This document shows, piece after piece, positions 1 through 45,705 of a stretch of DNA of 64,000 bases. Both the position numbers and the translations under genes were made by a program. Origin of the DNA: Chrysophaeum taylorii. Its lineage: Eukaryota; Sar; Pelagophyceae; Pelagomonadales; Pelagomonadaceae. The stretch is from NCBI GenBank assembly GCA_029834535.1, contig JAQMWT010000318.1, positions 1 to 64,000 of the forward strand, written 5' to 3'. The notes under the pieces are model-generated. The model was not told the DNA's origin. It saw only the letters and a list, made by a program, of their open reading frames with translations, and did no database searches. The first letter of the stretch is position 1. Each line of letters begins with the position of its first letter.

Positions 1-1689
1 ACTATTATGTGTGCGACACTGGAACATTTCACGAACCTATCTCTACATCGAGGGTTTTCTCTCCGCAATGCGGCTTTTCCCTCTCTCCTTCTTCCCTTAC
101 CCTTCCGCCCCTTTTATCTCAGATTATGAAGAACCCAACCTGAAGCTCTTTTCCAACTGGAGTGGGCCTCCAGTGCGTACCGGTCGGGTACGGGTTTTCT
201 GTTTAATTTACAGAGACTTCGTTCAACGTTATCAGTGTAAACGCTGCGATGGGACCTAATGTCCTTAGGGCTTTTTTAGGGCCTAAATCCCTACCTTGGG
301 TAGTAGCATGTGACAAGCGGAATGGTCCAGTACACGCCCTAAGACTGCACGCAGTCCTCTTCCATGTACCCGGAGAGAGGGTCCCAGTCTCTCCAGGTTG
401 ATGACTTGTTCCATACGCTCGGAGCTAGACGTTATGTTGGCGACCGGCTTGGCTAAGATTGCGAATGGTTTGGAGTTTGCGACGAACTTCACGAAGGAAG
501 ACCTGGAGCGTGTGGTCTGGAGTAGATGGTTTGGGTGGATGAGGTTGCGTGGGAAGGTGACCTTTCGAAGATGCTGGTGCTCGCGTTGTCATTGGTGACA
601 GGAGGAGGCGGGGGCTCGGTGCTTGTTCTTCGGTAGGGTGACAGGGGTGGCCTTGGGCTTGGAACTGTCATTGAACGTCGTAGTAAGACGGGGAGCGAGA
701 TTAGGCGCTTTTTGCCTGAGGGGGCTTTTGACGAGCCGCGAAATTTGCTTCTTGCGTAGCGTGTAGTTGTAATAGATCATTTGTCTTCCTCTTGATCAAG
801 ATTGGCCTCCGTGAGAAAAACGGCGACGGGTCGGTGGCTTCAATGGGGTCCGGTGGGGTTTTCGTCTTCAGAGGGAGAGTGTTTCATCATCGTCTTCGGT
901 GAGGTGGAGACCATGACGGCGGGTCGAAAAGCGTGGGTTGTCCTTTCTCTTTGTTGGCAGACGACCAATGCAGTCCGTAACAAGCGCAAGGCTTTGAAGT
1001 TAAGAGTGGGGTGAGGCTTGAGGTGAGCCCAAAAGTGGCGCTCAAACGTTGAAATAACAGTGATGCGGGCGCTAGAGCTTAGGAAAGGTGGTGGATGGCG
1101 TCCTTGTCTCGTCCGAGTAATAGCGAACGTTGGAGGTGCGCAAACAGTTAGCGAGACGTGCAAAGCCTTGATGTGTGTTGGGGCGCGGGAGTCAAGCAAG
1201 CTTGGGGGTACTTGAATCGAAGACCTTGGTGATTTCTTCGAGGATCTTGTTGTCGGGAAGTTGGAGAGAACGTCCGTGGTGATCTGGCGGAGCTGCTGCT
1301 GGACATGACGCATGTAATCGATGTAGTGAGCTGGTTCATGGATTTCAGGTTGAACGGCGTGTCCAGAAAGGCATTGTAAACTAATGCGCATGATGATGTG
1401 GTTCTGGCCCGTATGCTTATCGAGTGCGAGGCGAACTTGCAGCCGAATTCGAGTCCTATTGGGTAGGAGGATCCAAGTGCATCGATTTTCGTCGTATGCT
1501 GGGTGCTTGACGGAGTCGCTACCGGCATGTAGAAAAGAATCGCGAAATAGGGGGTGTGCGGTCTCGCGGAGATTTTGATACGATGAAGTCGGCTTCTTTC
1601 CTTGGAGATGCGGTTGAGTGATCGGGTATAGCTTGCCTTTGTTATATCGGTCGGGTCCTTGTCTTGGTTCTTGAGCTGGCTTGGGCTTT
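1..1689. other. Left flank; no confident gene
   Basis: No recognisable domain was found. The minus strand stays open over about 840-1817 (325 codons). That frame starts inside the neighbouring LTR and is rich in Arg, His, Pro and Ser without any family motif. Shorter minus-strand stretches near 283-780 are Pro/Ser/Lys-rich. This could be the worn end of an older element that the retrotransposon landed beside, or a chance open frame in GC-rich DNA. Confidence 0.3.
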
Positions 1690-2022
1690 TGTGGCGTAAG
1701 GAGAATTTTAGGGGCTACCTGGCGTGCCTTCGAATCCTGGCTCGCCGATCGCGTCCGTGCCCTTGGTGGGATCACTGGACGAGGATGGCCGTTCTCCCGC
1801 CACGCGATCACAAACAACTTCCGTGCCTGGTCCTCTCAACTTGAGGATCGGCTGTTGCTTTATGATCAAGGATAGAAAATCAGAAATCAGGGTGACATGC
1901 GTCACGGAAAGGGAGATGATGTCATATAGAACACTGACATCATCGGAACGGAGTAGGGTGCCCCTGATAAGGGGGGGCCCTAGAAGAGGGGTAAGCCTTA
2001 GGAGGCGGGAGTTGCCGCCACA
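1690..2022 (-). repeat. 3' LTR of the gypsy element
   Basis: Direct repeat of 11835-12181. It begins TGTGGCGTAAGG and ends TTGCCGCCACA, giving the usual TG...CA ends as a short inverted repeat. It lacks an 8-bp CGCCGTAA segment present near the matching end of the other copy and carries scattered substitutions, for example in the stretch around 1872-1940. Confidence 0.92.
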
Positions 2023-2062: not shown

Positions 2063-2754
2063 CTAGCGCGAGGAGCGCGGCTTCGCCTTACGAGCATCTC
2101 GTGAACGAATCTTCTGGTAAACGCGGGTGATGATCGGTTCAGGAACTCGACCACTGCGTAAAGTAAACTTGGGTATCAACACATCAATCTCGTGTGGAGC
2201 GAAATCCGTGACACAAGGAGTTGTGTTGGAGGAAATTCGGGACTTGTCGGTGAAACTTCGACCTTCAACGTCCTTGAATTCGGGCTTGAGCTTGCGGTGC
2301 GAAAGGTGAGAGGTCGGCTTGAAATAAGCGACATCATCGTTCGGACCCAAATCGGAATAGAAATGTAGAGCAACACGATCATTTTGGTAATCGTAAGGCT
2401 CGTAAACCTCGGCAACATAAATCTTCTTGCGCCAATCAGATCGCTTCCGGTCAGGAATCCGGAAAACAACAAACTTACCGTGCTGATAATCATCACGGAA
2501 GGTTTCTTCGGTTTTGCGGATGGTTTGATCAACGATGGAGGTACCATCACAGGCGTGATCTGACTTACATGAACACGCCGCTCTTCGGGCGGAGAGTCGA
2601 GAGACTCAATCCTATAGGTGACCGGGTAGAGGTTCCTTGATAATAAACGGCCTCGCCATTCCGGTCGAAGTTTGTTCTGAAGGAAAGGGATGTAGAGCAA
2701 AACGTGCGATCCTTCCTTGTATTCAACATCAACATGATCAGCATTGTAAGCCAA
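2063..2754 (-). pseudogene. Integrase C-terminal domain plus extra reader-like C-terminus (frameshifted)
   Basis: The first part (2754 to about 2580) resembles the integrase C-terminal GPY/F-type module: EGSHVLLYIPFLQNKLRPEW, then VHVSQITPV. After a frame change near 2530 a second folded segment is readable at about 2530-2330 (KFVVFRIPD...KKIYVAEVYEPYDY...VALHFYSDL). This pattern of short beta strands ending HFY recalls the chromodomain or BAH-like tails found after integrases in chromoviruses, though I cannot assign a family. The last 95 codons (2350-2063) are basic and close the element 40 bp before the 3' LTR. What is seen is the reading frames and motifs; the chromatin-reader role is inference. 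Confidence 0.6.
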
Positions 2755-2769
2755 TCGTTCGCTGTTTCT

Positions 2770-3198
2770 TCAAAGCTTTATCACGAGCTCGCGGACGATC
2801 TTTGTATAATATTTCAATCGTTCGCGAGTCTCGGCGACTGCATCAGAGCGAGTCTTCGGCAATAATCGTGTATCAAAATCCATGAGCGTGTAGTCAGTCG
2901 GCAGCATCGGCTGACGGTTCAGGCGCAGCATAAAGGGAGAAATCTGCGTGCCTGGAATAAACTTGCGGTTGTAGCAAAACGCAATATAATGAGCAAAGTC
3001 AGGCCAATCCGTGATGTTCCGGCCTTGAAGGCAAGCACGGAGGAAGGCCTTGATAAATCGGTTGACACGCTCAGCCGGGTTCGACTGGGCATGATAGGGA
3101 ATCGTAGTTTGGTATCGTGTGTTAAAGAGATGGCAAAACTCGCGCATCAACTTGTTCACGAACTCTTTACCGTTGTCGGTACGAATCATCTGGGGCAA
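2770..3198 (-). pseudogene. Integrase catalytic core, C-terminal part
   Basis: 142 codons containing IRTDNGKEFVNKL (second catalytic Asp of the DDE triad) and YHAQSNPAERVNRFIKAFLR (catalytic Glu region). The frame overlaps the preceding integrase frame by about a dozen bases, so one base has been gained or lost near 3190. It would join viral cDNA ends to target DNA together with the upstream part. Confidence 0.85.
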
Positions 3199-4034
3199 GT
3201 AGCCCTGAGAGGAATGTTAATGACAAAAGACTCGAGGACAGACTCAGCAGTCTTATCGTTCAAAACATCCAGAATCAAGAAATGCGAGAGCGGATCAAAA
3301 AATACTAGAAGATACGTCTCGGGACCAGCGCTGGGCAAGCCAAATAAATCCATGCAAAGAACAGCACCATCACCATCGTAGACGGGCTGCTGCAAGAGTC
3401 CAGCTCGTTTCGGCTCAGGCGTACGAGCTTTCTGGCAAACTAAGCATTCAGCAATGAAGACTCCAACTTCGTTCGACATGTGAGGCCACCAAAATCGTTC
3501 TTGGATAGCCTGGACGGTACTGTGACGTCCCATATGACCACCGTTAACCGGAGTGTCATGGTAGAGTCGAATAATGCGCTTGCGCAACGTAGCAGGTGCA
3601 ACAATCATCGGGTGCGAATCAGCAGAAATGCGGTAAAGAACATCTTTAACGACTTCGAATCGTTCGTTCGCTCGGGAACGTCGCGGCGTCTGACCTTGGG
3701 CCATTCGGTAGCGAATATCCTCGCAAGTAGCATCAGATTCTTGCTCACGTGCGATCTCAGCGAGCGTCATATTATCGGGTATCTTATCGATATAATCTTT
3801 GTAAGCGGCTGCGTCCTTGAAGATCTGTGGCTCATCGCGCGCACGGTTCTTCCGACGTTGTCTCGTAGCGTGAGACGTAGCCAATTTCATCGGATCCTTT
3901 TCAGGGTCTTCGTCTTCGTCTTCCGGCAGTTCGGTCGTAATAAACGACATTATGAAGTGGCAGCCAGAGACGGGAACTCCTCGGTCATCAACAGGTCGGG
4001 GAAGCTCTTGGAACACTAAATACGCGTGGTTCAA
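3186..4034 (-). pseudogene. Integrase zinc-binding domain and N-terminal catalytic core
   Basis: 282 codons. A charged linker rich in Asp, Glu and Arg precedes an H2C2 zinc-binding module: LYHDTPVNGGHMGRH followed by AECLVCQKAR. The core then begins with VLCMDLFGLPSA, carrying the first Asp of DDE. The frame stops shortly after the first Asp, and the rest of the core continues in the next frame (2770-3198). There is no upstream ATG; the frame is entered from RNase H through a shift near 4040-4070. Confidence 0.87.
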
Positions 4035-4069
4035 AGGTTCTCCAAACTCGTCAGTCTCGATGACATGAT

Positions 4070-5103
4070 CTATCGGATGCGGGAGAGACAGTCAGGGATA
4101 CTCATTCCCGGTGACTTTCCCGGCTTGTAACCAAGTTCAGGGTCAAAATTGGCGAGGCGCATCGCCCAACGAGCAAGCTGCCCAGACGAGTGCGTCGCCT
4201 TACGTAAAAACGTCAAATTTCGGTGATCGGTCTCCAAAACAGTCCGGTGCCCTTCGATGTAGGCTCGAAAGTGCTCTAGAGAAAGTATAACTGCCAGCAG
4301 CTCTAGCCGACGGGGCTCATAATTCGCATCTCCTTCGGCACAGCTCGGCTCCAGTATTCAATTACTCGTTCTTCTCGAGTCACTCTTCCGGCATCGTCCT
4401 TGACTTCGACAATCTGGAAGAGATATGCTCCAAGTCCATCCTTGGAAGCATCGGATCGGATCTGAAAAGGCAGATCATAATCGGCGTGGTAGACTCCACG
4501 GGAATCAACCAAAGCTTCAATAATCGTATCCCAAGCTTTCTGACACTCGGGCGTCCACTCGAACTTTACACCTTCGAGGCATAATCGTCTCAACGGTTCC
4601 ACAATCTTCGAGTAGCCCTTCACATATCGCCGGCAGTAATTACTCATGCCGATGAAAGAGCGTATCTGGGTCTTCGGGGAAGTATTCGGTAAAGTACCTG
4701 GAATCGGCATCTTCTGCAGTGCTTCCAGCGTCTTCGGATTCGGCTTCAAGCCTTCTGGGGTAGAAATGTGTCCCAGAAATTCTATATCATCCTTGAGAAG
4801 GTGGAACTTCGCGGTTCGACCGCTGTACCCTCTCTGTGCCAAATGACACATCACTTCGATCAAAACTTGTAAATGTCGATGAAGATCGTCGGATCCCATC
4901 ATAATATCGTCAACAAACGCAACCAAGTCTTGATACATCCATTTCGAAAGGTCGCTCGCCATTTGCTTGCAGAAAAGAGTCCGGCCGTCTTCACACCTAG
5001 GGTAATCGCAAGAAACTGTGAGCGCCAAGTGGGCTAACCATCGTGACAGCGTCCTGCGCTGCCGGATCCAGACGAAGGTTGTGGTATCCCCATCTAATAT
5101 CAA
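4070..5103 (-). pseudogene. Reverse transcriptase C-half and RNase H (frameshifted)
   Basis: 4303-5103 encodes RT palm and thumb with the catalytic LVAFVDDIMMGSDD (the FVDD box near 4905), the gypsy-type FLGHISTPEGLKPNPKTLEA, and the connection FIGMSNYCRRYVKGYSKI, then RNase H starting at QIRSDASKDGLGAYL. A one-base shift near 4305 moves RNase H into another frame, where LELLAVILSLEHFRAYIEG, the ETDHRNLTFLRKA box and DCLSRI can be read down to about 4070. It joins the N-terminal RT frame through at least one indel near 4980-5000. Confidence 0.88.
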
Positions 5104-5857
5104 TGCATGTCCGCCATCGTCTCATCGCGAGAAAGGCTAAAGCATCATCTTGTCGAATGTTTGGCCAACTGTCATTGACCAATTGATCGTTGAGCTGACG
5201 TAAGTCAACTGCAGCACGGAACGCGTTTGACGTTCCAATCTCAGCTCCTTTCTTCGGAAGCATCAACACAGGAAAGCCCCAAGGTGAGTTGGCCGGACGA
5301 ATGACTCCATCCCGGCACCACTCGCTGATCTGCTTGCGGAGACAATCGAGCTTCGCAGGCGTCAATCGGTAGGGCGTCATCTTAATCGGTCGCGGATTCG
5401 CGTCTTTGAATCGTAGAGACACAGGAGGCGAGTCCACAGGTCTCATAATCGGGTCGAAAAAGGCCCAAGAATATTGCACACAGTGACGGAGCATCAGTTT
5501 CGCCTCGTCATCTAAGTGCGGATTGTCAGGAATTCCCAGCTCCTGCACAACCTTGTCAACTTCTTCCTTCGTAGGAATTTGAACTTTCATTGCTTCGTTG
5601 TCCTTGACATGCTCAGGAGTCTGCGGCAGTGGTGCACCCTCGGCATCGCGCGGCGCATCTTTCCATGGCACATCGAACTTTTTCTCGTATTTTAGTTTCA
5701 CTTCCGGGTGGCTTTTGTTGATCCTCTCGCCTTTGACACGAACACTCGGCTCGCTCTTAATCTTCGGTTCCCGATCTCGCTCAGGATCTGGCGGAACGTC
5801 TAAATTTGGTTGTCGGGGGGGGGCCAGCAGAAGAAGCATGAGACGCCCCCGGCTCAT
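4997..5857 (-). pseudogene. Reverse transcriptase N-half
   Basis: 286 codons. A basic Pro-rich linker is followed by RT fingers and palm: MTPYRLTPAKLDCLRKQISEW, PANSPWGFPVLMLPKKG, FRAAVDLRQLND, and CIDIRWGYHNLRLDP, which carries the first palm Asp. The frame breaks at the FLRLP box near 5000, where a tyrosine codon has lost a base and become a stop. Upstream it is separated from the methyltransferase ORF by a run of nine C (minus strand, about 5815-5823) lying between two frames. That run could be a slippage site or simply an indel. Confidence 0.9.
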
Positions 5858-5872
5858 CTGTTGCAGGCGGAA

Positions 5873-8800
5873 TCAACGGTACCTCTGGAGGTTCCATTTG
5901 GTGAGATCTTGAAGATCATCATTCGACACCCATCTTATGACACGTGTGCGCGTGTTTAACAGCGGAACTTGTACGTGACGAAGGGTAGTTTCATCAATTT
6001 GTAAATAATAATCAAACGGTCGGTCTGCGGGACTCAACGCTGACGGCAAGGTTTCGCCGATCAGGCGAAATTCCTTGGTCACAGAGTTGTGCAGATCGAG
6101 CATTAATAAGGCCATCGTGTCAGGTGGCACGACGGACGCCAAGTGTTTCAACGAGGTCGTCTTGGAGAGGCCGGCCCAATCAAAATCAGGGGGCATCGTC
6201 CGCAACTCCGAAGTCATTTCCAGATTCAGAGATCTGTAATCAGAACGGTGCGGTCCTACGCGAAGCGGGACACGCGCAACAGTATAAGCTGCGTCTGTCG
6301 CGGCTCGTGATGATCCTAAATTGTTCATCTGAAGTAAATGTCGTTCGTCGGCGTAGCCAAGTGCTGCGGCGAACTTTTGCTGCATATTCTTGCAAGTCTT
6401 TGGAACTGCGCGCAAATGGAGCGGATGGCTGGAAACCAACAATCGCACGCGACAGCTCATCAAACTAGGAGTTATGTCGTAAAAATTGACGACGTATACG
6501 TACGGGTGCAAACGTGCAACGTAAGAAATAATCGAAGCCTCCTGCTCTATCAACCACATGAAGAAACCAGCCATCTTGCATAATTTCATCGTCCAGTGGG
6601 TAGCGGTAACTCCTTTCCCAACATCGCTGGAGGTCAAGTTGCACAGAGCGGAGTGTACGCAGGGTGGCGACGCGACACACATCGACGACGACCATTCCGC
6701 GTAGGGTAAATAAGATTCGATCAACCGTAAGGTTGTAACATAGCGACCACACAATGTGTGCTGCACCACAGGAATATTCGGAAAGTTCTTGTGGTGGATC
6801 TGGTTGGCGGTGTCCGACGCATCGAGTGCTAGCACGACTCGAAACGACGTCCCACACGTTTCGTTGGCTCGTTGGAGACCTGAAGTACTGCCTCCGGCTC
6901 CACTGAACAGCATCACCACCTTGCGATAAGTGATTGGAAGCCATTGAACCTTTTCATATCGGCGACGGATCTCCGCTTCGGTGATCTCGCGGCATTTCTT
7001 TTCATCTTCTTCCGACCCTCGAGCGAAATCGTCGCTGCCTTCAGGTCGCTTGAGGGTGGACTTGTCCGTCATAGCGGTCGTAGCGTCCTTCTGCACCGTG
7101 CTCAGCAGCATCGGCGGGGGAGATTCGTCGCATCGCGTCGAGTGACTAACTACAGAAACGGTGAAAGAAAGGTTCCCCTTGTCGTATCCTTCTTTACATT
7201 CTTTCGTAAGTTCGTTGATCGTAGAGACGTTCAACTCATCTTCGTACCTAACGATATCACCAATCGCAAGGACTTCGCCTTGAGTGACGACCGTCGGCAC
7301 TTCTTCCGTGGCAGTAACCGCCACCCGAGCAGCGGTCCGGTTGCGCTCTTCGCAAGAAGAACACATTCCTTCGACAACTCCCAACTGCTCGTTTTCGGCA
7401 AACGTAGCGACGAAAACCTGTCCTCTTTCCATAGGTTTCGACAAAATAACCGGTAGATTGTACGTTCGACCGGGCTCGATTTGAAGCGTGCGCGCAGCAT
7501 AAGCTTTTACTTCTCGCGTGTCTTCTCCCGGAGCTGGGGAGAATGTGGTCGTAGCATGTCCCCGCGTAGCTAAGGCTACCTTACGTTCCGGCGGCGGGCT
7601 TCGGAGATCTTTAATCGTGCTCAAACGAGCGTAAACTCGAGTCTTGACCAGGTCGAGACTCTGCCGAAAGGCATCGTGTTGATGATTGTAAATCGGCGCG
7701 GTTATCGGATTTCGATCGTAAATAGCCCGAAAGGTCACGATTGGTGCATCGACTCGGTCATCCTTAACTTTAATCTTCTTGCGCCCGTAGACGACTTGGG
7801 TTCGACAAAAACAGATCCGATCATGGGGAAAATCCACGATGGCTCCTAAAACTCGTCTATCGCGCCCTCCCAACAGGAACAGATAATTCGTATCGGCTAC
7901 AATAGCGACAATGGGAGCAGCGAAGTCGTCGGCGAAAGCGACCCGAAGGGCGATCCAACGATGGATCGTCGTCGTATTCAATCCTGATCCGTACAGCTTG
8001 CGCTTAATCGGAAGTTCGCCTTCATCGAAAATCAACTGATCTTTGGTCAACTTTTTGACCATTTCTCGACAAATATACGAAACATCTGCCATTCCATCGA
8101 CACCGATGGTCGTCGAGAATTTCGGTCCGTCACGATTCCTGCAGATGTGACAGGCTATAAACGTTAGAGTACCCGTATCTAAACAACTTAGGGTAATCAA
8201 ATCATCTTCGATCGTCTTGCCGTCTCGCGGCGTCAACGAAGTGTGAGCACATCGGGCTCTGATTCGCTCATCTCCGGGGTTGGGCATCGATACCGCGGCT
8301 TGAGCTTTCGTATTATCTGTTGTTGGCGTCTTCGCCATAACGCTCGCGGCAGCCTCTTTATCTGGCGGCTTCCGCTCTTCCTCCAAGACAATCTCCGAGG
8401 GAATAAACGCTGGTAGGGGATCCTGGTCTTCGTAATCCTTGGAAGCAAACAACCCCTCCCATAAATCATTCATTTCGTCGTTCCATAATGCATCTGTGAA
8501 TTCATTCGTCGCCTGCTGATCCTCATCAGCATCGGCGATCGGTTCCGTGTCAGCTGCGGCTTTGAGTCTGCAGCTGCGCGGTTGTTCTAGTGGCTTCTTT
8601 AGCAAGAAATTCCGAGCTTTCGTCCACCAATCCTGTAGGTTCCACGTCGGCTCGTCTTCGTCCCTTTTGAGAACGCTGCTAATCTTCTTCATAAATCTAT
8701 CCTTTTCTTCCGGCGGCGTATCCGTGTCTCGATCCGTAGTAACCGAAACCGTTTCGGGGGGGTCCGCAGGAAAAGATGGCGTCGTCCCCGACGTCAACTC

Positions 8801-10927
8801 TGTCGTAAAATCGTCGTCTGCAATACTCGCGCTGGTCATCGTCTCGTCAGTCGAATGCGCGCACGAGCTAGCACTGCAGAAATTCATGTCTGGCTCACAG
8901 CCAGTGCGGTCGCCAGCGGTCGTCTCTGGAGAGTCCAAAGATAAACCGATGGCATCGAGGGCTTCCTCATCAAAAATAAACGGTGGGTCGTCCGTGGACG
9001 ACCCGTCAAATAACGTTAACGCGGACACTGGTTCACAAAGTGTAGCTTCTTCATCTTCCGAATCTGAATCGCCTTCCCAGTATCGTGGAGCTTCAAGTTC
9101 CTCATTCGAATCTTCGAGCTCATCGCTCGACATCTGCTCATAAATCTGTGCCAAAGACCGACGATTGGTCAGCACGTCGTTGGGTGGCTCGTCCATCGAT
9201 GGGCCAGCAAGATCTTCGAATGCGACCGCGGCAAGGGCGTCGGCTGCGTCGTCGGTGCGGGTGTCCGCGTTCGGGTACACCGTCACTCCTAATGGTAACT
9301 GTTGACCGCAAGGGGTCGTAAATGCGAACGTTGCAGACGACTGTCCCGAGTCTTCTCGGTAACGACCATCGTCCGAATCTCGATCGCGAGATCTTCGTCG
9401 CCGGCGGCGGCGTGAATGTCTGCTAGAGCTCCTGCTATCTTTCCGTCGGCGCTGGCACGAGCTGCTACGGCTCTTGTCGTGGCGTCGGGGGCTCCGGCTA
9501 TCTCGACGGCCCGTTCGTGTCGAAGACGATCGGCCGTGTCCATCTGTGAAGTGCTGCACGGTACTCATAACCGTGGTTAGCTGCGTGCTCATATCATTGA
9601 GTCTGGTCTGAATATCGTGAGCAGCGCTCGAACCGAGGGTGGCATTAGAACTGCCGTCGTCACGCGAATGATTATCTTTCCTTTGTCGGCTCTCCCATCG
9701 TCCTCGCGAAATGGGCTTTCTGCCGTCTTTGATGTATTTGCACATCGCTACATAATAGTCGTCGGGCTCGCGGTTGCAAATGACGCGGTTCCCGTGTTCA
9801 TCCTTGTCGTGGGTCGCTAAGAAAAACCCACAGTCCTGGCACGTCCTCTCGAACCACTTTTTCGGATTCTCTCCGAGGCGTAAGGCTTCATATTCCGTCG
9901 TCTTATCTTTCGTTCCCGAGACGAGAGCTCGTCCTCCGCGTCCAGGCGGCGGCTTCTGCGGCTTCCCGCTCGAGGGGTTCATCGAGTTTCGGCTGTTCTT
10001 CTCCGCCATGGCTGTTGCGAAGTCGTTTTCGAGCCGCGTAATCAGCGACAACGTAGACGTAAGCGTCTTGTACGTCGTCGGGTGTCCGCTGCGCATCGTT
10101 CGCACGCGGGATTTCAATTCGCTGGACTCTAGTCCACGTATCAAGTAAGAGATGATCTCCACGTCGTTGACATCTCGGTTGGCCACGGAACAGTATGCCA
10201 TGGCTTCATGCTGAAATTTAATGCAATATGTATGCACGTGACGTTCTCCAGAGCGTTTCGGAACGGTCGCTTGGGTCGTGCATTGTAACTTTCGTAATGA
10301 TTCCTCTGCCGTCACCGGCAGCGGACAACTCTCTCGGAAATATTTCAAAATCTCGAGGCAATACTTCTCGTTCAATCGTCGTATCCGTCGTACCACGGAA
10401 CCGTACTCCTCATCGTCGATATCCCGACATAAATAGAAAGACGCTGGGTGATCGAGGTCTTTACACCGGTCTTCATATTTCTTTACGTGTTCTCGAAAAA
10501 TCGGTGCGACCGTGTCGCGCAGGGTCGCGGGAAGCAGATATCGGAGTTTCTCCAAGCTGAAATGGTCTTCGGCTAACGTACTCATCACCGCGCCCGCATC
10601 TAAATCGAACTGGTCCTGATCGCGTCCATCGAGAACCAGGTTAAAAGTTTCGGTTTTTAATCCAGAGGTTGATCGCCGCTCCTTGTTGCGATCGTGTCTA
10701 GCTAACGCGCTCGCGAGTCGATCCGCAAAACCCATCAAGAACTCCCGGGTGTCGATCTTTCCGGCGCCACGCGTCTCCTCCTTTTCTTCTTCATCATCGT
10801 CTTCATAGCGCGGCTTCCTAGCTTTCGCGCGTGATCGTGTAGTCGGCGGCTCTTCCTCAGCTCGGGACTCCGGGCTGCTCGCTCGCTCGCCTTGATCGAC
10901 TCGGCGTACGTAACTCGTCTCTTTCAC
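5873..10927 (-). CDS. Gag - retropepsin-like - cytosine-5 DNA methyltransferase polyprotein
   Basis: 1684 codons without a stop. Residues about 60-330 are a Gag-like helical region. About 367-400 is a Cys-rich stretch (CQDCGFF...NRVICNRE) that may bind zinc. About 430-520 is an Arg/Ser-rich tract and about 560-880 an acidic, disordered spacer. About 935-1030 resembles a retropepsin: GVDGMADVSYICREMVKKL replaces the usual D[ST]GA, and FLLGGRDRR...GAIVDF matches the flap-distal ILG.D...GA..DF box. About 1335-1610 is a C5 DNA methyltransferase: motif I VVMLFSGAGGSTSGLQRA (F1341), motif II VLALDAS, motif IV ASPPC with nucleophile Cys1423, motif VI WLIEQ with Glu1461, motif VIII SCRVRLLVS, motif IX MTSELRTMPPDFDW, motif X VVPPDTM. 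The PPCQ glutamine is Val and the protease DTG is altered, so protease activity is doubtful. The start codon is uncertain because an upstream coiled-coil frame (10857-11366) overlaps and probably fused to it before an indel. MTase capture by LTR elements is known from a few algae and dinoflagellates; function here is inferred. Confidence 0.9.
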   Translation of the reverse strand: MKETSYVRRVDQGERASSPESRAEEEPPTTRSRAKARKPRYEDDDEEEKEETRGAGKIDTREFLMGFADRLASALARHDRNKERRSTSGLKTETFNLVLDGRDQDQFDLDAGAVMSTLAEDHFSLEKLRYLLPATLRDTVAPIFREHVKKYEDRCKDLDHPASFYLCRDIDDEEYGSVVRRIRRLNEKYCLEILKYFRESCPLPVTAEESLRKLQCTTQATVPKRSGERHVHTYCIKFQHEAMAYCSVANRDVNDVEIISYLIRGLESSELKSRVRTMRSGHPTTYKTLTSTLSLITRLENDFATAMAEKNSRNSMNPSSGKPQKPPPGRGGRALVSGTKDKTTEYEALRLGENPKKWFERTCQDCGFFLATHDKDEHGNRVICNREPDDYYVAMCKYIKDGRKPISRGRWESRQRKDNHSRDDGSSNATLGSSAAHDIQTRLNDMSTQLTTVMSTVQHFTDGHGRSSSTRTGRRDSRSPRRHDKSRSSSCQRRRKDSRSSSRHSRRRRRRRSRDRDSDDGRYREDSGQSSATFAFTTPCGQQLPLGVTVYPNADTRTDDAADALAAVAFEDLAGPSMDEPPNDVLTNRRSLAQIYEQMSSDELEDSNEELEAPRYWEGDSDSEDEEATLCEPVSALTLFDGSSTDDPPFIFDEEALDAIGLSLDSPETTAGDRTGCEPDMNFCSASSCAHSTDETMTSASIADDDFTTELTSGTTPSFPADPPETVSVTTDRDTDTPPEEKDRFMKKISSVLKRDEDEPTWNLQDWWTKARNFLLKKPLEQPRSCRLKAAADTEPIADADEDQQATNEFTDALWNDEMNDLWEGLFASKDYEDQDPLPAFIPSEIVLEEERKPPDKEAAASVMAKTPTTDNTKAQAAVSMPNPGDERIRARCAHTSLTPRDGKTIEDDLITLSCLDTGTLTFIACHICRNRDGPKFSTTIGVDGMADVSYICREMVKKLTKDQLIFDEGELPIKRKLYGSGLNTTTIHRWIALRVAFADDFAAPIVAIVADTNYLFLLGGRDRRVLGAIVDFPHDRICFCRTQVVYGRKKIKVKDDRVDAPIVTFRAIYDRNPITAPIYNHQHDAFRQSLDLVKTRVYARLSTIKDLRSPPPERKVALATRGHATTTFSPAPGEDTREVKAYAARTLQIEPGRTYNLPVILSKPMERGQVFVATFAENEQLGVVEGMCSSCEERNRTAARVAVTATEEVPTVVTQGEVLAIGDIVRYEDELNVSTINELTKECKEGYDKGNLSFTVSVVSHSTRCDESPPPMLLSTVQKDATTAMTDKSTLKRPEGSDDFARGSEEDEKKCREITEAEIRRRYEKVQWLPITYRKVVMLFSGAGGSTSGLQRANETCGTSFRVVLALDASDTANQIHHKNFPNIPVVQHTLCGRYVTTLRLIESYLPYAEWSSSMCVASPPCVHSALCNLTSSDVGKGVTATHWTMKLCKMAGFFMWLIEQEASIISYVARLHPYVYVVNFYDITPSLMSCRVRLLVSSHPLHLRAVPKTCKNMQQKFAAALGYADERHLLQMNNLGSSRAATDAAYTVARVPLRVGPHRSDYRSLNLEMTSELRTMPPDFDWAGLSKTTSLKHLASVVPPDTMALLMLDLHNSVTKEFRLIGETLPSALSPADRPFDYYLQIDETTLRHVQVPLLNTRTRVIRWVSNDDLQDLTKWNLQRYR

Positions 10928-11366
10928 GGGTCAACGAGCTTACTTGCTCTTGGAAGGCGTCCGCTCGAGCGTTGGCCCGATGCAGTTGCTCTTTTAATTC
11001 TTCTTTCTCCTTCCGTTGTAGCCGTTCTTTTCGTTCGTTCTCTTCCCCTATTTGTTTTAAAAGTCGTTCTTGCGCGCGTTCGTTCTCTTCGCGTAATGCC
11101 CGCAAGTGAGCCTCGTAGAACTCATTCATTTTCGTTGCATCCGGGGGTTCTGCACGCGTTGACGGAGCTGTCGATCGTCCTCCCGTCGGTCTCTCCGTGG
11201 GCTTGCCGTCGTTGTAGTTTAGCTCTTCTTCCTCGTCAACTTCTGTATCGTGCTCTTCTTCATCGTCATCATTATCATCATCGTCATTCCGCTCGTTCGT
11301 CTCATCCTGACGGCGTGGCGGTTCTTCATATCGTAGCTGCTCGACGGCAGCATCATCGTCTTCCAT
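10857..11366 (-). pseudogene. Coiled-coil N-terminal part of Gag
   Basis: 169 codons. An acidic Asp/Glu-rich tract is followed by about 70 residues of Glu/Arg/Lys/Leu coiled coil (HLRALREENERAQERLLKQ and following). It overlaps the start of the large Gag-PR-MTase frame by 70 bp, and the sequences flow into each other if one base is gained or lost near 10900, so it is probably the true N-terminal part of Gag. Confidence 0.6.
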
Positions 11367-11834: not shown

Positions 11835-12181
11835 TGTGGCGTAACGCCGTAAGGAGAATTTTAGGGGCTACCTGGCGTGCCTCCGAATCCTGGCTCGCCG
11901 ATCGCGTCCGTGCCCTTGGTGGGATCACTGGACGAGGATGGCCGTTCTCCCGCCACGCGACCACAAACAACTTCCGTGCCTGGTCCTCTCAACTTGAGGA
12001 TCGGCTGTTGCTTTATGATCAAGGATATATCGAAAACCCAGAAATCAGGGTGACACATGTCGCGGAAAAGGAAGATGATGTCATAGAAAACTCTGACATC
12101 TTCGGAACGGAGTAGGGTGCACCTGATAAGGGGGGGCCCTAGAAGAGGGGTAAGCCTTAGGAGGCGGAAGTTGCCGCCACA
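11835..12181 (-). repeat. 5' LTR of the gypsy element
   Basis: 347-bp copy of the LTR at 1690-2022, with the same TGTGGCG and CGCCACA ends and 8 extra bp (CGCCGTAA) near one end. It should hold the element's promoter; no clear TATA box was picked out. Confidence 0.92.
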
Positions 12182-12651: not shown

Positions 12652-14832
12652 TTAGGCAGCGACGTTTTCCTCCTCCTCCTCCTCCTCCTCGGGTCCCCCA
12701 GTCTTGAGCACGACTTGCTCGGTCTTGGCGAAGGCGGCGGGCACGATCGGCGCGGAGAGACTGGTGCCAAAGATGCCGTCCAAAACGAGATAGATCGAGT
12801 TTTTGGACTCGTAGATCGGGAGAAAGACGATGATGAAGGAGGCCGTGAGACCCCAGAGCAAGGCGATAAAGACCCAGAATGCGAAGTAGTCCTTGGTAAA
12901 GACGCCGGCGGGGGTGGAGAGCACGGGCCAGACGACGACGATCAAGATGGTGAAACCCCAGCCGACTTTGGCGATCCAGGCCTTTGCTTCTTCGAGCTTG
13001 ATCGGATCGAGGTCTTCGTCAGAGAGTCCGGATCTGTCGTTATCTAGGAGCTGGATTTCGGCCATGGATTTCCAGTCGTAGTTTTGAGGGTATAGTTTGG
13101 AATGCACGAAATGGATGCAGCCAGAAGAGCAAATCGCCACGACGTTGGCCGCCAGCATGACGTAGTTGTTTCCCAAAGTAGCAATCGAGATGCTGCCGCC
13201 GGCAATAGAAGCCGCGACGAACCAGGTAATTAGGGCGAGAATCATTCCGCCCCACGCGGCGAATACGGCGCCTCTCGCCGAGGCGTTTTCCCAGGTCATG
13301 AGGTTCCACAAGGGGATGACAGCAGAGCCGATGACGATGCCCATGAAGAGGTAGACCCATCCTAGACTCAAGCCAATAGCGTTGAGGATGACGGCGAGGA
13401 CGCCCATGACTAGGCCGTAAACGACGACGACGATTCTCGAGACCCGCATGATGTCGGCTCCGGTCGCTTCGGGGTTGAAGTAGGTGCGGTAGACGTCGTA
13501 GGCGGCGATGGATGCGACGGCAATAGACTCCGCAGAGCCCGTGGAGACGATGGCCATGAATAGCATGATAGAGATCATCAACGCGCCGGTTTTGCCGTAG
13601 ACGTGAGTGGCGACGGCGGGAGGAACTAAACCTTTCGAGGCTTCCTCTGCATCGATGGGAAGTTGAAGGGCAACGGCCGCCAAACCGCAGGCGGTGGCTA
13701 AAGCGAAGGGAATCGTAAACCACACCATTCCCCCCAACATGTACCCTTTGTGGGCGGCGGCGGGTTTCGCCGCGATCGCCGATTGCCAATAGCTTTGGTC
13801 GACGAAGACCGTACCGAAGTTGCCGATGATGTTGATGATGCCAAACACGAGGCCCGGGGCGGAGAGCATCGTCAGGTAGCTGCCCCGGCGGTTTCCCTTT
13901 ACGCTCCCGCACGCGTACCGGGGGAAATCGTCGTCGTAAAACGTTTCGGAGACGTCGTTTCCGCCGTCGCCAAAGCAGTTTTCGATCGAGATCTCGCCGT
14001 CTACCTCGCAGCCGCACGAAGTTCCACTACTATCACATTTGTAATTCTCGGAGAAAATAATCTCGCACTCCTCGAAGGAGTGGTCGATCGTCTTCTCCAG
14101 AAGGTCATAAATCTCGTCGGTCGAATACTCTTTCACGTAAACGGTGTAGACCATGACCAACAAAATGACGAAAATCACGCCCGTGTGGATGTACGAGGCC
14201 AGAAAAGTGGCCTTCAGCCCGCCCGCCGCCGTGTACAGGATGACGCCCCACGGAATCAAGAACGACGTGAGAGTGACGTCACAGCCCGCCAACGCCTTCA
14301 TCGTCGCCGATCCTCCGAGCAACAACATCGACGTCACGATGATGCTCGTCAGAAACGAGAAAAAAATGAAGGTTTTGTGCGCAGTTTTTCCCCACCGCAC
14401 CAGCACCAGTTCGCAGACCGTGTGACAGGTCGGAGCGCGCCGTTTCAGTTCTATGGCCAAAATACCGAACAACAGGACCTGGATCGTCGCTCCGCTCGCG
14501 TACCAGAAAGGACCGGAAACTCCAAACTGCCACGCCACGTTCGACGACTGAAGAAGCGTCGCCGCCCACGTCCACTGCGACACGATCACCGACGCTGTGA
14601 GACCTATTTTTATGTCGCGTCCTGCCGTGTTGAAGAACTCGGAGGTGACTTTAGTTCCTGTGAATTTCGCTTCCAACCACACAATTCCTGAAGTAACAAA
14701 AGAGAAAAATACACCAAAACCAACCACAATAGCGTACCCGCTCCACTGCGGGAGCGGCGCTTTGTTCTCGAAAAACGTCTCGTCCCCGTAATATTTCGAG
14801 TCCATCTGCGACACCACGTTGTCCGTAGGCAT
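12652..14832 (-). CDS. DUR3: Sodium:solute symporter, DUR3-type urea transporter
   Basis: 726 codons, single exon, intact. It belongs to the sodium/solute symporter (SSS) family, most like the DUR3 high-affinity urea (and polyamine) transporters of plants, fungi and algae. About 14-15 hydrophobic segments are visible. Characteristic stretches are SQWTWAATLLQSSNVAWQFG, AAGGLKATFLASYIHT, VFVDQSYWQSAIAAKP (where DUR3 proteins have the same DQSYWQ box) and MAIVSTGSAESIAVASI. A Cys-rich extracellular loop of about 70 residues (two CxC-like pairs) lies between the transmembrane groups. The C-terminus ends in a Glu run from a GAG-type repeat. It should import urea across the plasma membrane with Na+ or H+. 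A TTTC microsatellite lies about 55 bp upstream. DUR3 is the best call; another SSS subfamily is possible. Confidence 0.92.
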   Translation of the reverse strand: MPTDNVVSQMDSKYYGDETFFENKAPLPQWSGYAIVVGFGVFFSFVTSGIVWLEAKFTGTKVTSEFFNTAGRDIKIGLTASVIVSQWTWAATLLQSSNVAWQFGVSGPFWYASGATIQVLLFGILAIELKRRAPTCHTVCELVLVRWGKTAHKTFIFFSFLTSIIVTSMLLLGGSATMKALAGCDVTLTSFLIPWGVILYTAAGGLKATFLASYIHTGVIFVILLVMVYTVYVKEYSTDEIYDLLEKTIDHSFEECEIIFSENYKCDSSGTSCGCEVDGEISIENCFGDGGNDVSETFYDDDFPRYACGSVKGNRRGSYLTMLSAPGLVFGIINIIGNFGTVFVDQSYWQSAIAAKPAAAHKGYMLGGMVWFTIPFALATACGLAAVALQLPIDAEEASKGLVPPAVATHVYGKTGALMISIMLFMAIVSTGSAESIAVASIAAYDVYRTYFNPEATGADIMRVSRIVVVVYGLVMGVLAVILNAIGLSLGWVYLFMGIVIGSAVIPLWNLMTWENASARGAVFAAWGGMILALITWFVAASIAGGSISIATLGNNYVMLAANVVAICSSGCIHFVHSKLYPQNYDWKSMAEIQLLDNDRSGLSDEDLDPIKLEEAKAWIAKVGWGFTILIVVVWPVLSTPAGVFTKDYFAFWVFIALLWGLTASFIIVFLPIYESKNSIYLVLDGIFGTSLSAPIVPAAFAKTEQVVLKTGGPEEEEEEEENVAA

Positions 14833-14888
14833 CCTGCTGCTGATCCTTTCTTCTTCAACTCGCCAAACGTCCCGTTTTTCGTCCGTTA

Positions 14889-14890
14889 TT

Positions 14891-14926
<36 letters not shown>
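14889..14926. repeat. (TTTC)n microsatellite
   Basis: Nine to ten tetranucleotide units just upstream of the symporter start codon, inside the likely 5' UTR or promoter. Confidence 0.95.
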
Positions 14927-14927
<1 letters not shown>

Positions 14928-14960
14928 TTCAAAGAAGAAGCTTTTTTATTTATCCTCCTT

Positions 14961-16226
14961 ACTACTACTAATCGACGACAGATGTTTGTCTGTTTGTCTC
15001 TTTAAATGTCGACTGCTAAGAGGGGGGTGGGTGTGTGTGGGGGGGGAGCATGGAGGATGTGGCCATTGTGGGTGGGTTTGTGCGGTAGGAGGGATGTGCC
15101 TGACGGGCGGAGATAAATAAGTACGCGGGACCTAGTCGGGGTCATCGCCGAGTCGTGGGGCAGGCGAAGAGAGGACGGACGGGCCCCGGGGTTGTTTGTT
15201 CCCAGATTCAGGCTACAAGGATCAGGTAGGCCCGCCAGCCAGGCATTGATCCTCCTCCAAGCCGTCTACGGCGGCGACCTCGCAGACTATTTCCACGACC
15301 CGCGGCGGCTCTTTTAGCCACCGCGCCATTCTCACGCCCCGTCGAAACGAAACGATGTTCTCGATGCTGACAACGCGCGCATGACCGCGGCCTTTTTTTT
15401 TCCCGGAGACGAGGCGTCGGAGTTCTTCTTTTCGGCCGACTAGGTTGGGTCGGAAGACGACGCCTCGCTCTTTACAGTCGAGTTTTCGGGAACACCCTGA
15501 CAACCAACAGCATGCTGACTTTTTTGATCGCGAGCTTAAGGTGTGTCTTCGCAACCTCGACCCGTCTCGCACGGCCACTGCAACGGTACCAGATACATGA
15601 TCGATCGTGTCGTGTGTCGCCGAGGCATCTCCAACCTGTATCCCTTAAGGCCCGCCGACGCCAAACGATCACCAAGAGCCAGGGCCAGACGCCCCGCGAG
15701 GTCGGCGTCCTCTTGCCCACAAGCCCGTCTTCTGCCACGTCCTGGAGCTCTACGTGGCTCTCTGTCGATCGGCAACCCCGAGGATATCCTCTTCTGGGTC
15801 GACGACTCCACCCTACCCCACACGTGCTGCGCAATACCGATCAGCCCCCTCCCGGCGTCTACACGCGCACTGTAGGTGAACTATAACTGGGCACTGTAGG
15901 TGAACTTACTGAAACCAGGTGAACTTACGGAGGTTAGAGATTGGGACTAGGTGAACTTCTTAGTGACCAGGTGAACTTACTGAGACCAAGTGTGAGCTTA
16001 CTGGGGCTTTTAGAGTAAACTCAAAGCTCAGCGGCGTGTGCGGATCAAAGCAGCTTAGATTGGCGGGGGTGAGAGCGACGAGCTCGAAGGAGAGTGGGGT
16101 GAGTGGGTGCGGGTTTACGCCGAATTTACTGGGGTTAGAGATTGGGACTAGGTGAACTTAACGGGAACAGGTGAACTTGCTGGGGTTAGAGATTGGGACT
16201 AGGTGAGCTTACTGGCCTGCACTTGT
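14961..16226 (+). mobile_element. Helitron-type repeat, copy H1
   Basis: One of five copies of the same interspersed repeat (others at 25186, 33754, 40583 and, inverted, 44666). It starts at the CTACTAATCGACGACAG sequence, with GTCTGTTTGTC units and the TTTAAATGTCGACTGCTAAGAGG box, and ends GGCCTGCACTTGT after a degenerate tandem array built on GGTGAACTTACTGGG. In between, broken frames encode the end of a Pif1-like helicase as in Helitron RepHel proteins. Motifs seen here in shifting frames: LTPRRN, FPGDEASEF, LRNLDPSRTA..., and TITKSQGQTPREVGV. No intact ORF remains. Confidence 0.75.
15225..15886 (+). pseudogene. Helitron helicase (Pif1-like) C-terminal remnant in H1
   Basis: Readable in several frames: an ILTPRRN segment near 15330, FPGDEASEFFSAD near 15402-15442, the LRNLDPS...NGTRYM box near 15550-15600, and KSQGQT (helicase motif VI region) near 15675. 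These are the hallmark motifs of the last 250 residues of Helitron and Pif1 helicases. Frame changes separate them. Confidence 0.7.
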
Positions 16227-17129
16227 GACACTTATATTAAGTTATAACAATGAAATGTACTAAAATTTTTTCACATTTTACAAATATTATTGTGGACACA
16301 GATAGCCACCGCGCGCTGTTAATTTTTCTATATGTCGGACGGACGGACGGACGGACGGACGGATTATTCGATTCGTAGGTGTTGGTTCCATCAACAGGAT
16401 TAATAAATTATCGTTAGCAACTCCCTGGCTCAGAGAGCCATAATGGACGATCGCACAAAGGACTCTTAAACACGAAAGAAGAAAAGGCCAAAGACGACCG
16501 CAGAGGACATCGATGGAGCAAGAAGGAAAATAACAAGGCAGACGGGAGAAAGAAACTAGCCGGAAGAGGGGGTCACGCGGTGAGAGGCGTGGTGAGAGCG
16601 ACAAAAAGAGCGCATTGTAGGATGAGGCGCAAGAGAGGCGTAAAACAGGGGGGAGAGCAAAACGAGCATAGAGCATATAGATCGGGAAGGGGCAAGAACG
16701 AGTGTTTGGGGTAGAGAGATGGGACTGGTTCAGAGGCAGGGCCGCCGTCGCCGCCAATACCACCCGTGTTATGGGACAATCCAAGTCAGCCGTTTGTATT
16801 ATTCAGGCGGGAGAGTGATCCCGGGGGTTACGCCTGAGCGTCTCACGTTGCTTGTGGGTCGAGTTCGGTCTCCATGGTAGGGGCCTGGCAACAAAACTGC
16901 AATTTTTAGCGTCGACCCGCCTGCAACCCCAAACAGAGCGCAAAAAACAAGCCCAAAAAAAGCCATATGATCAAAAGCATGGAAATATGGCCCCAAAAAC
17001 TTACCCTCAAAACGAACGAAGAAGAACACCCGCCCAATAACAAAAACACAAGCCCAATAAGACAAAAAGGCACGATTATGGGACAAAAGCATGGAGATAC
17101 AACCACAAAAGGTACACAACTCAAACAAA
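16227..17129. other. Repeat-rich intergenic region
   Basis: Contains a GGAC microsatellite (16336-16362). 16840-16915 is a diverged copy of the tail of repeat family C: CGTCTCAC...CTGGCAACAAAACTG...GTCGACCCGCC, also seen at 31328-31380 and 52980-53050. 16930-17165 is A-rich with degenerate tandem units around CAAAAGCATGGA and ACAAGCCCAA. No supported gene. Confidence 0.5.
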
Positions 17130-25249: not shown

Positions 25250-26956
25250 TAGTCTTTAAATGTCGACTGCTAAGAGGGGGGTATGTGTGAGGAGCATGAA
25301 GGATGTGGGTGGGTTTGTGGGGTATGAGGGATGTGCCTGACGGGCGGAGATAAGTACGCGGGACCTAGTCGGGGTCATCGCCGAGGCGTGGAGCAGGCGA
25401 AGAGAGGACGGGCCCCGCCCGTAGGTCGTACGCATGCTGCCGCCGGACGTATGTGCGACGAAGGATGACGTCCTGCTGGGATCGGGCGGCCTGGGTGAGG
25501 TTCCCCGAGGCAGGCGACGACATGGGTGAGGGCGGTGAGGGCACAGCGAGCCCGGCCTAATGCGTTGGCGATCCCCCACTCACGGTAGATGCGGCGAGTT
25601 TGGGCCGCCTTTGCCTCTGTGTTCAAAGTTGGCGCAGCCGCTTGCCGCCCAGGTTCGCGCAGCGATGCGCTCTGCGCATGTTTGGGCGACGAGGGCGTGG
25701 CACGCCACGCTGGGGGCCTCACCGAAGGCACCAAAGACGAGGCCGGCGACGGTGCCGTAGCTACGTAGCCGCTGTTCGACAGGGCCCAAGAAGCCAGGCG
25801 GTGGTGCTGTACCCGGCTGGGGGATGATGGCGTCGATGCCGCGGGCGTGAGTGAGGTATTCGGAGTGGATTTGCGGTGCGCGCCGATCGACAGGCGACGG
25901 GTGGGAGGGATGGAGGGCGTTTGTCCCCCGATTTAGGGTAAGGATCAGGTAGGCGCGCGAGCCAGACATTGATCCTCCAAGCCGTCTACGGCGACCTCGC
26001 AGACTGTTTCCACGACCCGCGGCGGCTCTTTTAGCCAGCGCGCCATTCTCACGCCCCGTCGAAACGAAACGATGTTCTCGATGCTGACAACGCGCGCATG
26101 ACCGCGGCCTTTTTTTTTCCCGGAGACGAGGCGTCGGAGTTCTTCTTTTCGGCCGACTAGGTTGGGTCGGAAGACGACGCCCCGCTCGTTACAGTCTTCG
26201 AGTTTTCGGGAAGTCCCTGACAACCAACAGCATGCTGACTTTTTTGATCGCGAGCTTAAGGTGTGTCTTCGCAACCTCGATCCGTCTCGCACGGCCACTG
26301 CACCGGTACCAGATACGTGATCGATCGTGTCGCGTGTCGCCGAGGCATCTCCAACCTGTATCCCTTAAGGCCCGCCGACGCCAAACGATCAACAAGAGGC
26401 AGGGCCAGACGCCCCGCGAGGTCGGCGTCTTCTCGCCCACAAGCCCGTCTTCTGTCACGTCCTGGAGCTCTACGTGGCTCTCTGTCGATCGGCAACCCCG
26501 AGGATATGCTCTTCTGAGTCGACGACTCCACCCTACCCCACACGTGCTGCGCAATATCGACCGATAAGCCCCCTCCCGGCGTCTACACGCGCACTGTAGG
26601 TAGGTGAACTATAACTGGGCACTGTAGGTGAACTTGCTGGGGTTTGAGATTGGGACTATAGGTGAGGTGAGTGACCAGGTGAACTTACTTCCTGGGACCA
26701 GGTGAGCTTACTGGAGTTTTATGACAACTCAAACTCAAAGGTTGGCGGCGCGTGCGGATCAAAGCAGCTTGGATGATTAGCGGAGGTGAGAGCGACGACG
26801 AGCTCGAAGGAGAGTGGGGTGAGTGGGTGTGAGCACGAGTGGGGGGTTTACGCCGGGACAGAGATTGGGACTGAGTGACCAGGTGAACTTACTGGGACCA
26901 GGTGAACTTACTAGGGTTAGAGATTGGTGGGACTAGGTGAACGAACTTACTGGCCT
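25186..26956 (+). mobile_element. Helitron-type repeat, copy H2
   Basis: Starts TCCTAACTACTAATCGACAG, then TTTAAATGTCGACTGCTAAGAGG, and ends in the GGTGAACTTACTGGG array. The helicase remnant spans 25950-26520 with RNLD..., GTRY and INKRQGQTPREVGV in separate frames. Unlike other copies it contains about 550 extra bp (25390-25930) that read on the minus strand as the tail of a reverse-transcriptase polyprotein. The terminal ACTTGT is replaced by unrelated sequence after GGCCTG. Confidence 0.72.
25395..25969 (-). pseudogene. C-terminal fragment of a non-LTR-type RT polyprotein inside H2
   Basis: About 190 residues in two overlapping frames: EYLTHARGIDAIIPQPG, SYGTVAGLVFGAFGEAP, then REWGIANALGRARCALTALT. 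The pattern G.V.GLVFGAFGE followed by a (R)WG..xARxxR segment is one I associate with regions downstream of RT in LINE-like elements of dinoflagellates and other algae. The fragment has no RT core and sits as an insert relative to the other Helitron copies. Assignment is from memory of the motif only. Confidence 0.4.
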
Positions 26957-34877: not shown

Positions 34878-35007
34878 AAATAAATATATAACCAGGCTGC
34901 GGATAGAGTCATCTATGTACTGTGATGGCAGCCTGCTCAAGTTGGACGCTTAAACGGGATGTGTAGCGAACTCTGCCGTCGTGCTCAAATACCAGGTCAT
35001 GCATCCA

Positions 35008-36552: not shown

Positions 36553-36659
36553 TATTATTGTTCAACTAATTTAGGGTTTACACGACGACGACACTTGGAA
36601 AAATAAATTAATTAATTAATTACCAGATTTGTGGCCACCCGAAGAGCGAGCCAAAGGTA

Positions 36660-42543: not shown

Positions 42544-43002
42544 CGACATTTGAAGACAAACAACCTTCATGCCCCCCCCCCACACACACCCCTCCTGGGA
42601 GGGTGGGAGGTGCCGTTCCATCAACGTCCTCGTTTTTGTCGAGCTCGAAATAAGCGCCAAAATTGGTGCCTCGAAAAAGAAAACGGACGATTGAGCCAAC
42701 CGGAGATGAGATTTTTTTTGTGCGGCCATCCTTTGGCATCATCCAATAGGCCACAACAACAACTCGACGACTCGGCCTCGAGATTTCCCTGCTCGCTTTG
42801 TGGCCAGAGCAGCCCTCGTTTTCCTCGAGCTCACCGTCGCTCAGAACGGGCCGCCCCCTGTGTTGCCGTACCAGCGGCGACCGCTGTAGCCGAACAGCAA
42901 CGCTCCGTTTTTATCTTGCCGTAGATCTGCTTAAAAGGGGGCAACGTTTGAACCAGACTGGCCGACCGCGCTGGCGTCGTCCTTTGTCCAAGCGAAGTAA
43001 AG
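42544..43002. other. Intergenic; ambiguous short ORFs
   Basis: Plus-strand 42640-42924 and minus-strand 42754-42560 are both open and moderately protein-like (minus: PVGSIVRFLFRGTNFGAYFE), so no strand is chosen. C-run at 42573-42582. Confidence 0.3.

Positions 43003-45674: not shown

Positions 45675-45705
<31 letters not shown>

Follow-up and report, generated by a model that had tools for sequence, protein, structure and literature searches.

A divergent cytosine methyltransferase domain carried by Ty3/gypsy retrotransposons, and a probable second capture by Ty1/copia elements, in Chrysophaeum taylorii

The stretch of Chrysophaeum taylorii DNA analysed here (the window, 64,000 nucleotides in full length) carries on its minus strand a Ty3/gypsy element with LTRs of roughly 334 bp, which enclose a reading frame bearing a C5-cytosine methyltransferase (MTase) domain. 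The 5′ LTR, which starts with TGTGGCGG, lies at about 11848..12181 and forms a direct repeat with the 3′ LTR at about 1690..2022. The two repeats are 94% identical over 336 aligned bases, and no target-site duplication was recognized by eye. A single open frame of 1685 residues between them (5873..10930, minus strand) holds a Gag-like region, a zinc-knuckle-like stretch (9773-9841, by eye), a retropepsin-like stretch (VDGMADVSYI ... LLGGRDRRVLGAIVDF; 7829..8101, by eye) and the MTase domain with motifs I to X (6113..6919), which is assigned from its motifs, from the profile PF00145 and from its relatives. A preliminary description of this locus had placed Gag and retropepsin in the same frame as the MTase. 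The single frame holds, but Gag and protease are both readings by eye, with no Pfam match for either in the window frame, and the frames of the two relatives searched (L051 and L053) likewise have no Pfam match for a protease.

Downstream of the MTase, reverse transcriptase (RT) and RNase H occupy two open stretches of the minus strand (4997-5872 and 4303-5121, together 4303..5872). The stretch at 4303-5121 matches RVT_1 at 7.4e-6, which is below cut-off, and RT_RNaseH_2 at 3.4e-12; that at 4997-5872 has no Pfam match and aligns with a segment of other copies that covers RT and sequence ahead of it. Further along the same strand lie a zinc-binding integrase segment (Integrase_H2C2, 9.5e-19) with, by eye, the start of the integrase core (3186..4091), and an integrase C-terminal stretch with broken frames (2063..2769), recognized by eye and by a weak match to Integrase_p58_C (E = 0.096). 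The two LTRs, together with RVT_1 (below cut-off), RT_RNaseH_2 and Integrase_H2C2 in the order RT-RH-IN, place the element in Ty3/gypsy.

The window copy is disrupted just past the MTase by a short out-of-frame stretch with a stop at 5873-5875, after which the RT stretch at 4997-5872 resumes in the frame of the MTase, and its frame is disrupted again further downstream. In several other copies, the frame listed for the MTase match is as long as that listed for the RT match (3063, 1612 and 1241 residues are examples), and the two hence share one frame; the longest frames containing the MTase reach 3,067 residues.

The 3′ LTR adjoins a gag piece of a Ty1/copia element (395..1675, minus strand), from a family bearing a different MTase. 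This piece is 88.8% identical over 1311 aligned bases to positions 56-1344 of the copia locus L052. A nested insertion of the gypsy element into copia gag is consistent with the left flank, but on the right nothing matches L056, the 5′ stretch of the copia element. The junction is either rearranged or a nesting that is unproven.

The MTase domain presents, in order on the minus strand, motif I (VVMLFSGAGGS, 6887-6919), motif II (VVLALDAS, 6815-6838), motif IV (VASPPCVHS, 6650-6676), motif VI (WLIEQEAS, 6533-6556), motif VIII (SCRVRLLVS, 6431-6457), motif IX (6176-6229) and motif X (HLASVVPPDTM, 6113-6145). All seven are present where the preliminary description had put them, and its Cys1423 and Glu1461 are correct when numbered from GTG; in the stop-to-stop frame, the motif IV cysteine is residue 1424 and the motif VI glutamate is residue 1462. 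The usual form of motif VI is ENV and that of motif X is GN. Here motif VI reads EQE (EQ(E/G) across aligned copies), such that the glutamate is kept while ENV is replaced, and motif X reads ASVVPP or GSIVPP, with no asparagine and with a serine at the usual GN position. Activity could differ because of these departures in motifs VI and X.

PF00145 is the only Pfam profile to match the long frame of the window, with E = 8.7e-4 and a score of 19.2 bits that covers only motifs I-II and falls below the curated cut-off of 22 bits. Because the window copy alone would be doubtful, the identity of the domain is decided by the scores of its relatives, both of which exceed the cut-off: 25.8 bits for an 81%-identical copy (L051) and 37.6 bits (E = 2.2e-9, in two stretches) for a 36%-identical representative of a sister family (L053). 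Positions 244-321 and 260-321 of the profile are matched at two genomic places, both within places occupied by the sister family. Apart from one insignificant match for the host-like protein L001, NCBIfam matches were confined to the general dcm superfamily, whose cut-off none of the five proteins searched (two of them host-like) reached. A single-sequence structure model reached a pLDDT of 31.8, and thus the model leaves a Rossmann MTase fold unsupported. By profile and motifs, the window domain is predicted to be a divergent C5-MTase that belongs to a lineage of elements.

The domain is abundant in its own genome (70.8 Mb in 697 contigs). The MTase piece of the window (P0001) recurs in at least 109 stretches, window copy included, that are 79-100% identical, and 84 of the 109 listed are free of stops (counted by hand). 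This number is a lower bound, given that only the best candidates were scored, with an opposite bias from contigs that look duplicated; contigs C10 and C297, for example, carry equal-scoring MTase copies. The MTase of the sister gypsy family is found in 121 listed stretches, from 109 scored candidates, and its frame continues into a gypsy-type RT whose PDB matches include gammaretroviral RT chains (1.5e-5) and a Ty3 chain (0.018). A chance fusion in a single copy is ruled out by these at least 109 window-type stretches and 121 listed sister-family stretches. Thus the central claim of the preliminary description, that a Ty3/gypsy element captured a C5-MTase between protease and RT, stands and extends to many copies; that account mentions neither the divergent sister family nor the Ty1/copia family, whose MTase is a different one. 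Searches for a viral source found no relative of either MTase alignment in IMG/VR contigs and none of the window MTase piece in phage records, and a set of 5.8 billion proteins held no relative at E ≤ 0.01 for P0001 or for P0002 residues 10-360; with eukaryotes of this kind being perhaps few in these collections, such negatives carry little weight. P0006 had no relative among the best 7999 candidates scored in the same protein set.

Copies with a damaged or missing MTase also occur. Among the listed RT matches of the window family, 66 of 134 have a listed MTase upstream, at a distance of 4-69 bases in 53 of these 66 pairs and of 834-1160 bases in the other 13, in which the wide gaps probably stem from PF00145 matches to motif I only. 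Counted from the MTase side, 53 of 109 stretches have an RT downstream among the matches listed. The upstream stretch was inspected for 10 of the 68 RT matches without a listed MTase: four have an MTase that spans residues 1-370 in two pieces, one has broken pieces, three have lost the N-terminal part including motif I, and two (L071 and L072) have no MTase. The last two share the same internal deletion, which fuses the Gag region to the linker preceding RT and removes both protease and MTase; they form a candidate subfamily spreading with help in trans. With two of ten copies devoid of protease and MTase and three of ten devoid of the MTase N terminus, RT-bearing copies without a full MTase of their own do exist, and perhaps spread in trans. 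The preliminary description had named copies lacking the domain as the mark of a chance fusion. Such copies are indeed present, yet carriers are many, and the missing domains look like secondary loss.

Selection on the gypsy MTase was assessed in the 30 best-scoring copies, window copy included, from which L041 was removed because of a frame shift. Across the 406 pairs formed by the remaining 29, a choice of copies that favours conservation, mean dN/dS is lowest in motifs I-VIII (0.079) and highest in motifs IX-X (0.95); the stretch after motif VIII has 0.21, the tail 0.25 and motifs I-X as a whole 0.19. The window copy and its 81%-identical relative give a dN/dS of about 0.05 over motifs I-X, at a dS that is saturated (2.4), and of 0.12 over motifs IX-X; two short stretches of this comparison yielded no dS value. 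The motif IV cysteine (C114), the motif VI glutamate (E152), both arginines of RxR (R184 and R186) and the glycines of the cofactor loop are unchanged in all 29 copies, and the phenylalanine of motif I (F32) in 28. An alignment of eight rows that reaches down to 36% identity, in which motif I reads FSGAGGS or FAGAGGS, keeps FxGAGGST, LALD, ASPPC, EQ, RxRLL, GPH and PP invariant. Purifying selection thus acts on most of the domain, namely motifs I-VIII.

A search of the same genome with PF00145 listed 123 matches. One (L001) we take, by eye from its motifs, to be a Dnmt2 gene, and another (L002) is presumably a further cellular DNMT, again judged by eye from motifs. The latter (G000:C621:15462-18998) has GTSCVDYS as motif IV, and 844 residues of its frame, listed at 2086 residues, were read here. 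Among the other 121 listed matches, 55 (ranks 3-57), plus one by range, match the middle of the profile, and six translations from this group (L012, L013, L016, L017, L018 and L020) contain PCQ and ENV. Locus L052 (G000:C96:61500-67500) together with L055 encodes, in order, gag, a protease motif (LIDGGAS), an MTase, integrase and copia-type RT/RNase H, and is a Ty1/copia element. Its MTase matches PF00145 at E = 7e-8 and lies between protease and integrase; the integrase, upstream of RT, matches rve at E = 0.0041, below cut-off, and RT and RNase H were identified by eye and not by profile. The locus also has an LTR-like pair with 88.9% identity over 208 bases.

Searching with the copia MTase listed 89 stretches, from 79 scored candidates. 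In five of the best copies (10 pairs), its dN/dS is 0.18, the motif IV cysteine and ENV are present in five of five, and the proline before the cysteine in four of five. About 300 residues, by eye, separate motifs VIII and IX, far more than in the gypsy MTase, and this long spacer may be an extra domain. Comparison of the gypsy and copia MTases gave an hhalign probability of 0.2% from shallow alignments (Neff 1.6 and 1.0) and a best BLASTP E value of 1.3. Two captures are likelier than one because the two MTases show no detectable similarity. Judged by sequence, the copia MTase is probably a separate, second capture, with great divergence from a common origin also possible.

Cytosine methyltransferase capture by retrotransposons is documented in two lineages in the passages of de Mendoza et al. 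2018 (PMC5890265) drawn on here. These describe DNMTs in Symbiodinium DIRS and LINE elements and in a Klebsormidium gypsy element, report purifying selection on retrotransposon DNMTs and cite Iyer et al. 2011 for rare links between DNMT and RT. According to the same passages, some of the retrotransposon DNMT domains methylate CG de novo in yeast, the DNMT of SymbioLINE is inactive on DNA in yeast, and the Copia elements of Symbiodinium have no DNMT domain (PMC5890265). The gypsy-DNMT class is not new, since KnitGypsy-Dnmt3 of Klebsormidium nitens was already published (PMC5890265). As described there, it resembles the window element in being an LTR gypsy with the DNMT in the Pol ORF, and its lack of introns, presence in several copies and DNMT Ka/Ks below 0.2 are comparable to the window family. 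It differs in the DIRS-like arrangement of its repeats and in its Dnmt3-related domain (PMC5890265). The window element has an ordinary pair of LTRs, and its MTase has SPPC-V/I as motif IV and EQE as motif VI. SymbioDIRS-Dnmt3 and SymbioLINE-Dnmt are also high-copy retrotransposons with embedded DNMTs, and the DNMTs of SymbioLINE form an orphan lineage, something that may also apply to the MTases described here; SymbioDIRS is a tyrosine-recombinase DIRS element and SymbioLINE a LINE (PMC5890265), classes unlike the LTR elements of this genome.

An LTR Copia element with DNMT3 is named in one sentence of a 2025 paper (PMC12344493) that cites de Mendoza 2018, of which the passages drawn on here describe Gypsy (PMC5890265). 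Such an element, as far as that sentence goes, would resemble L052/L055, in which the MTase follows the protease and precedes the integrase. None of the open-licence PMC papers listed in the literature searches was found to describe a copia element that carries a DNMT. Other transposons encode DNA methyltransferases too, but as adenine or N4-cytosine enzymes in the passages concerned: DIRS elements with Dam-like adenine methyltransferases (PMC5890265) and an Ectocarpus Sola transposon encoding a ParB-like plus N4C/N6A methyltransferase protein (PMC12477816). An opinion paper also mentions retrotransposons that encode DAM and DCM, with no element detailed in the part consulted, for charophytes, stramenopiles and both red and green algae (PMC6338049). 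With the gypsy-DNMT class already represented by KnitGypsy-Dnmt3, the joint gypsy and copia captures are the less expected part of our findings.

The MTase domain, its position, its high copy number, its conserved cofactor and catalytic residues and purifying selection across motifs I-VIII are shown by the sequences. We assign a probability of roughly 60% to the reading that a captured C5-MTase, kept by selection, methylates the nucleic acid of the gypsy element itself during replication. In outline, a single capture would have brought the domain into Pol of a Ty3/gypsy lineage. This probably preceded the division of the lineage into two or more families, and the domain would have been maintained by selection from then on. 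Sharing a polyprotein with RT, the MTase should co-assemble into the virus-like particle, where it may be freed by the protease or left fused, and the enzyme, predicted to be active, would methylate the nucleic acid of the element before integration. As a component of Pol, the domain should accompany RT in the particle, and newly made double-stranded cDNA, rather than RNA or host DNA, would be its simplest substrate. The benefit might be disguise or protection of that cDNA.

Several rival explanations, which are not all mutually exclusive and whose odds need not sum to one, bear on the substrate and on activity. The MTase might instead modify genomic copies, or the chromatin of the host at or around an integration site, as a form of silencing or target-choice control. 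This would suit a domain whose neighbours in the polyprotein are RT and integrase, and host-epigenome effects have been proposed for Symbiodinium in the passages of PMC5890265 cited above. Durable CpG methylation of genomic copies would be expected to cause CpG loss, but the observed/expected ratio of CpG is 1.34 in the window gypsy element, against 1.25 in the window from position 15000 on and 1.26 in the window at large. C/T differences at CpG, compared pairwise across 26 copies (the 29 besides the window copy, minus two short ones and one shifted), amount to 2.3% in the MTase piece, where the three other contexts are all higher (2.5, 3.2 and 6.2%), and to 6.5% in the RT-side piece, where CpG leads by a small margin (others 3.6, 5.8 and 5.9%). 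Coding constraint influences all of these CpG and C/T figures. Lower ratios were obtained for the sister locus L053 (1.01) and the copia locus L052 (1.06), one locus each, with TG and CA at 1.13-1.17 in both, and these could reflect plain composition or mild CpG loss, a possibility that makes action on chromatin slightly more likely than it would otherwise be. Insertions of the window family thus bear no clear sign of lasting CpG methylation, and the earlier suggestion that the element methylates its own copies finds no clear support at the DNA level. We consider action on chromatin quite unlikely, with a non-CpG or unstable mark possible under it; methylation of cDNA or RNA, or non-CpG marks, would be compatible with the same figures.

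The lack of a clear CpG signature in window family copies would suit an MTase that, much as Dnmt2 does, acts mainly on RNA, which inside the particle would be the genomic RNA of the element or its tRNA primer. An RNA substrate has been proposed for the SymbioLINE DNMT in the passages of de Mendoza et al. available to us (PMC5890265). A PDB search with the eight-row alignment returned three chains, none of them significant: the best is a plain cytosine methyltransferase (E = 0.39), and the other two are DNMT2 / tRNA(cytosine-38) methyltransferases (E = 0.88 and 0.92). Such insignificant matches over motifs I-II are uninformative on substrate, and motif IV of the gypsy MTase, in which V or I comes after SPPC, departs from the form typical of Dnmt2. 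An RNA substrate is, in our estimate, unlikely, if somewhat likelier than action on chromatin. Slightly less probable than action on chromatin is a catalytically dead C5-MTase fold that is kept as a structural or nucleic-acid-binding module. The altered motifs VI (EQE) and X, the weak match of the window copy to Pfam and the relaxed motifs IX-X among close copies all point that way, but the nucleophilic cysteine, the motif VI glutamate, RxR and the cofactor loop are invariant even in the 36%-identical relative and are kept in 28-29 of 29 copies, and a dead domain would need none of them. That the domain is no methyltransferase at all, but a chance resemblance or a fusion limited to the window copy, is hardly credible. 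The window copy does score below the PF00145 cut-off, and the protein set holds no relative at E ≤ 0.01; against this stand relatives above the cut-off, at least 109 stretches, a sister family and purifying selection.

A broader proposal, which we put forward tentatively and at somewhat less than even odds, is that, within one small eukaryotic genome, gypsy and copia elements independently captured unrelated C5-MTases directly after the protease, each now in scores of copies or more, for a shared task at the particle stage. Rather than chromatin, their substrate would be cDNA, genomic RNA or the tRNA primer, and the modification would counter a nucleic-acid sensor of the host. A particle-stage task of this kind may hold because the window gypsy copies have no clear CpG decay signature. 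If true, two captures by two LTR superfamilies at the same polyprotein position would mean that a shared problem has been solved convergently. Should the absence of a clear CpG scar in the window family be borne out, whether such enzymes act in the particle or on chromatin could be tested directly.

Elsewhere in the window, a frame at 35833-36561 (minus strand) has no Pfam match and an N-terminal segment, SIPAKAFVP, which we take to resemble the plastid-targeting signal of stramenopile algae. Pfam matches identify three likely host genes, encoding a sodium:solute symporter (12652-14928, minus strand), an axonemal dynein light chain (47322-47978, minus strand) and an SPFH/Band 7 protein (59751-60800, plus strand); the dynein gene suggests that the host is a flagellate. 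A repeat of about 1 kb is present in five copies (15191-16233, 25919-26957, 33826-34885, 41549-42551 and 44658-45711), one of them inverted, that are 84-91% identical in long pairwise matches.
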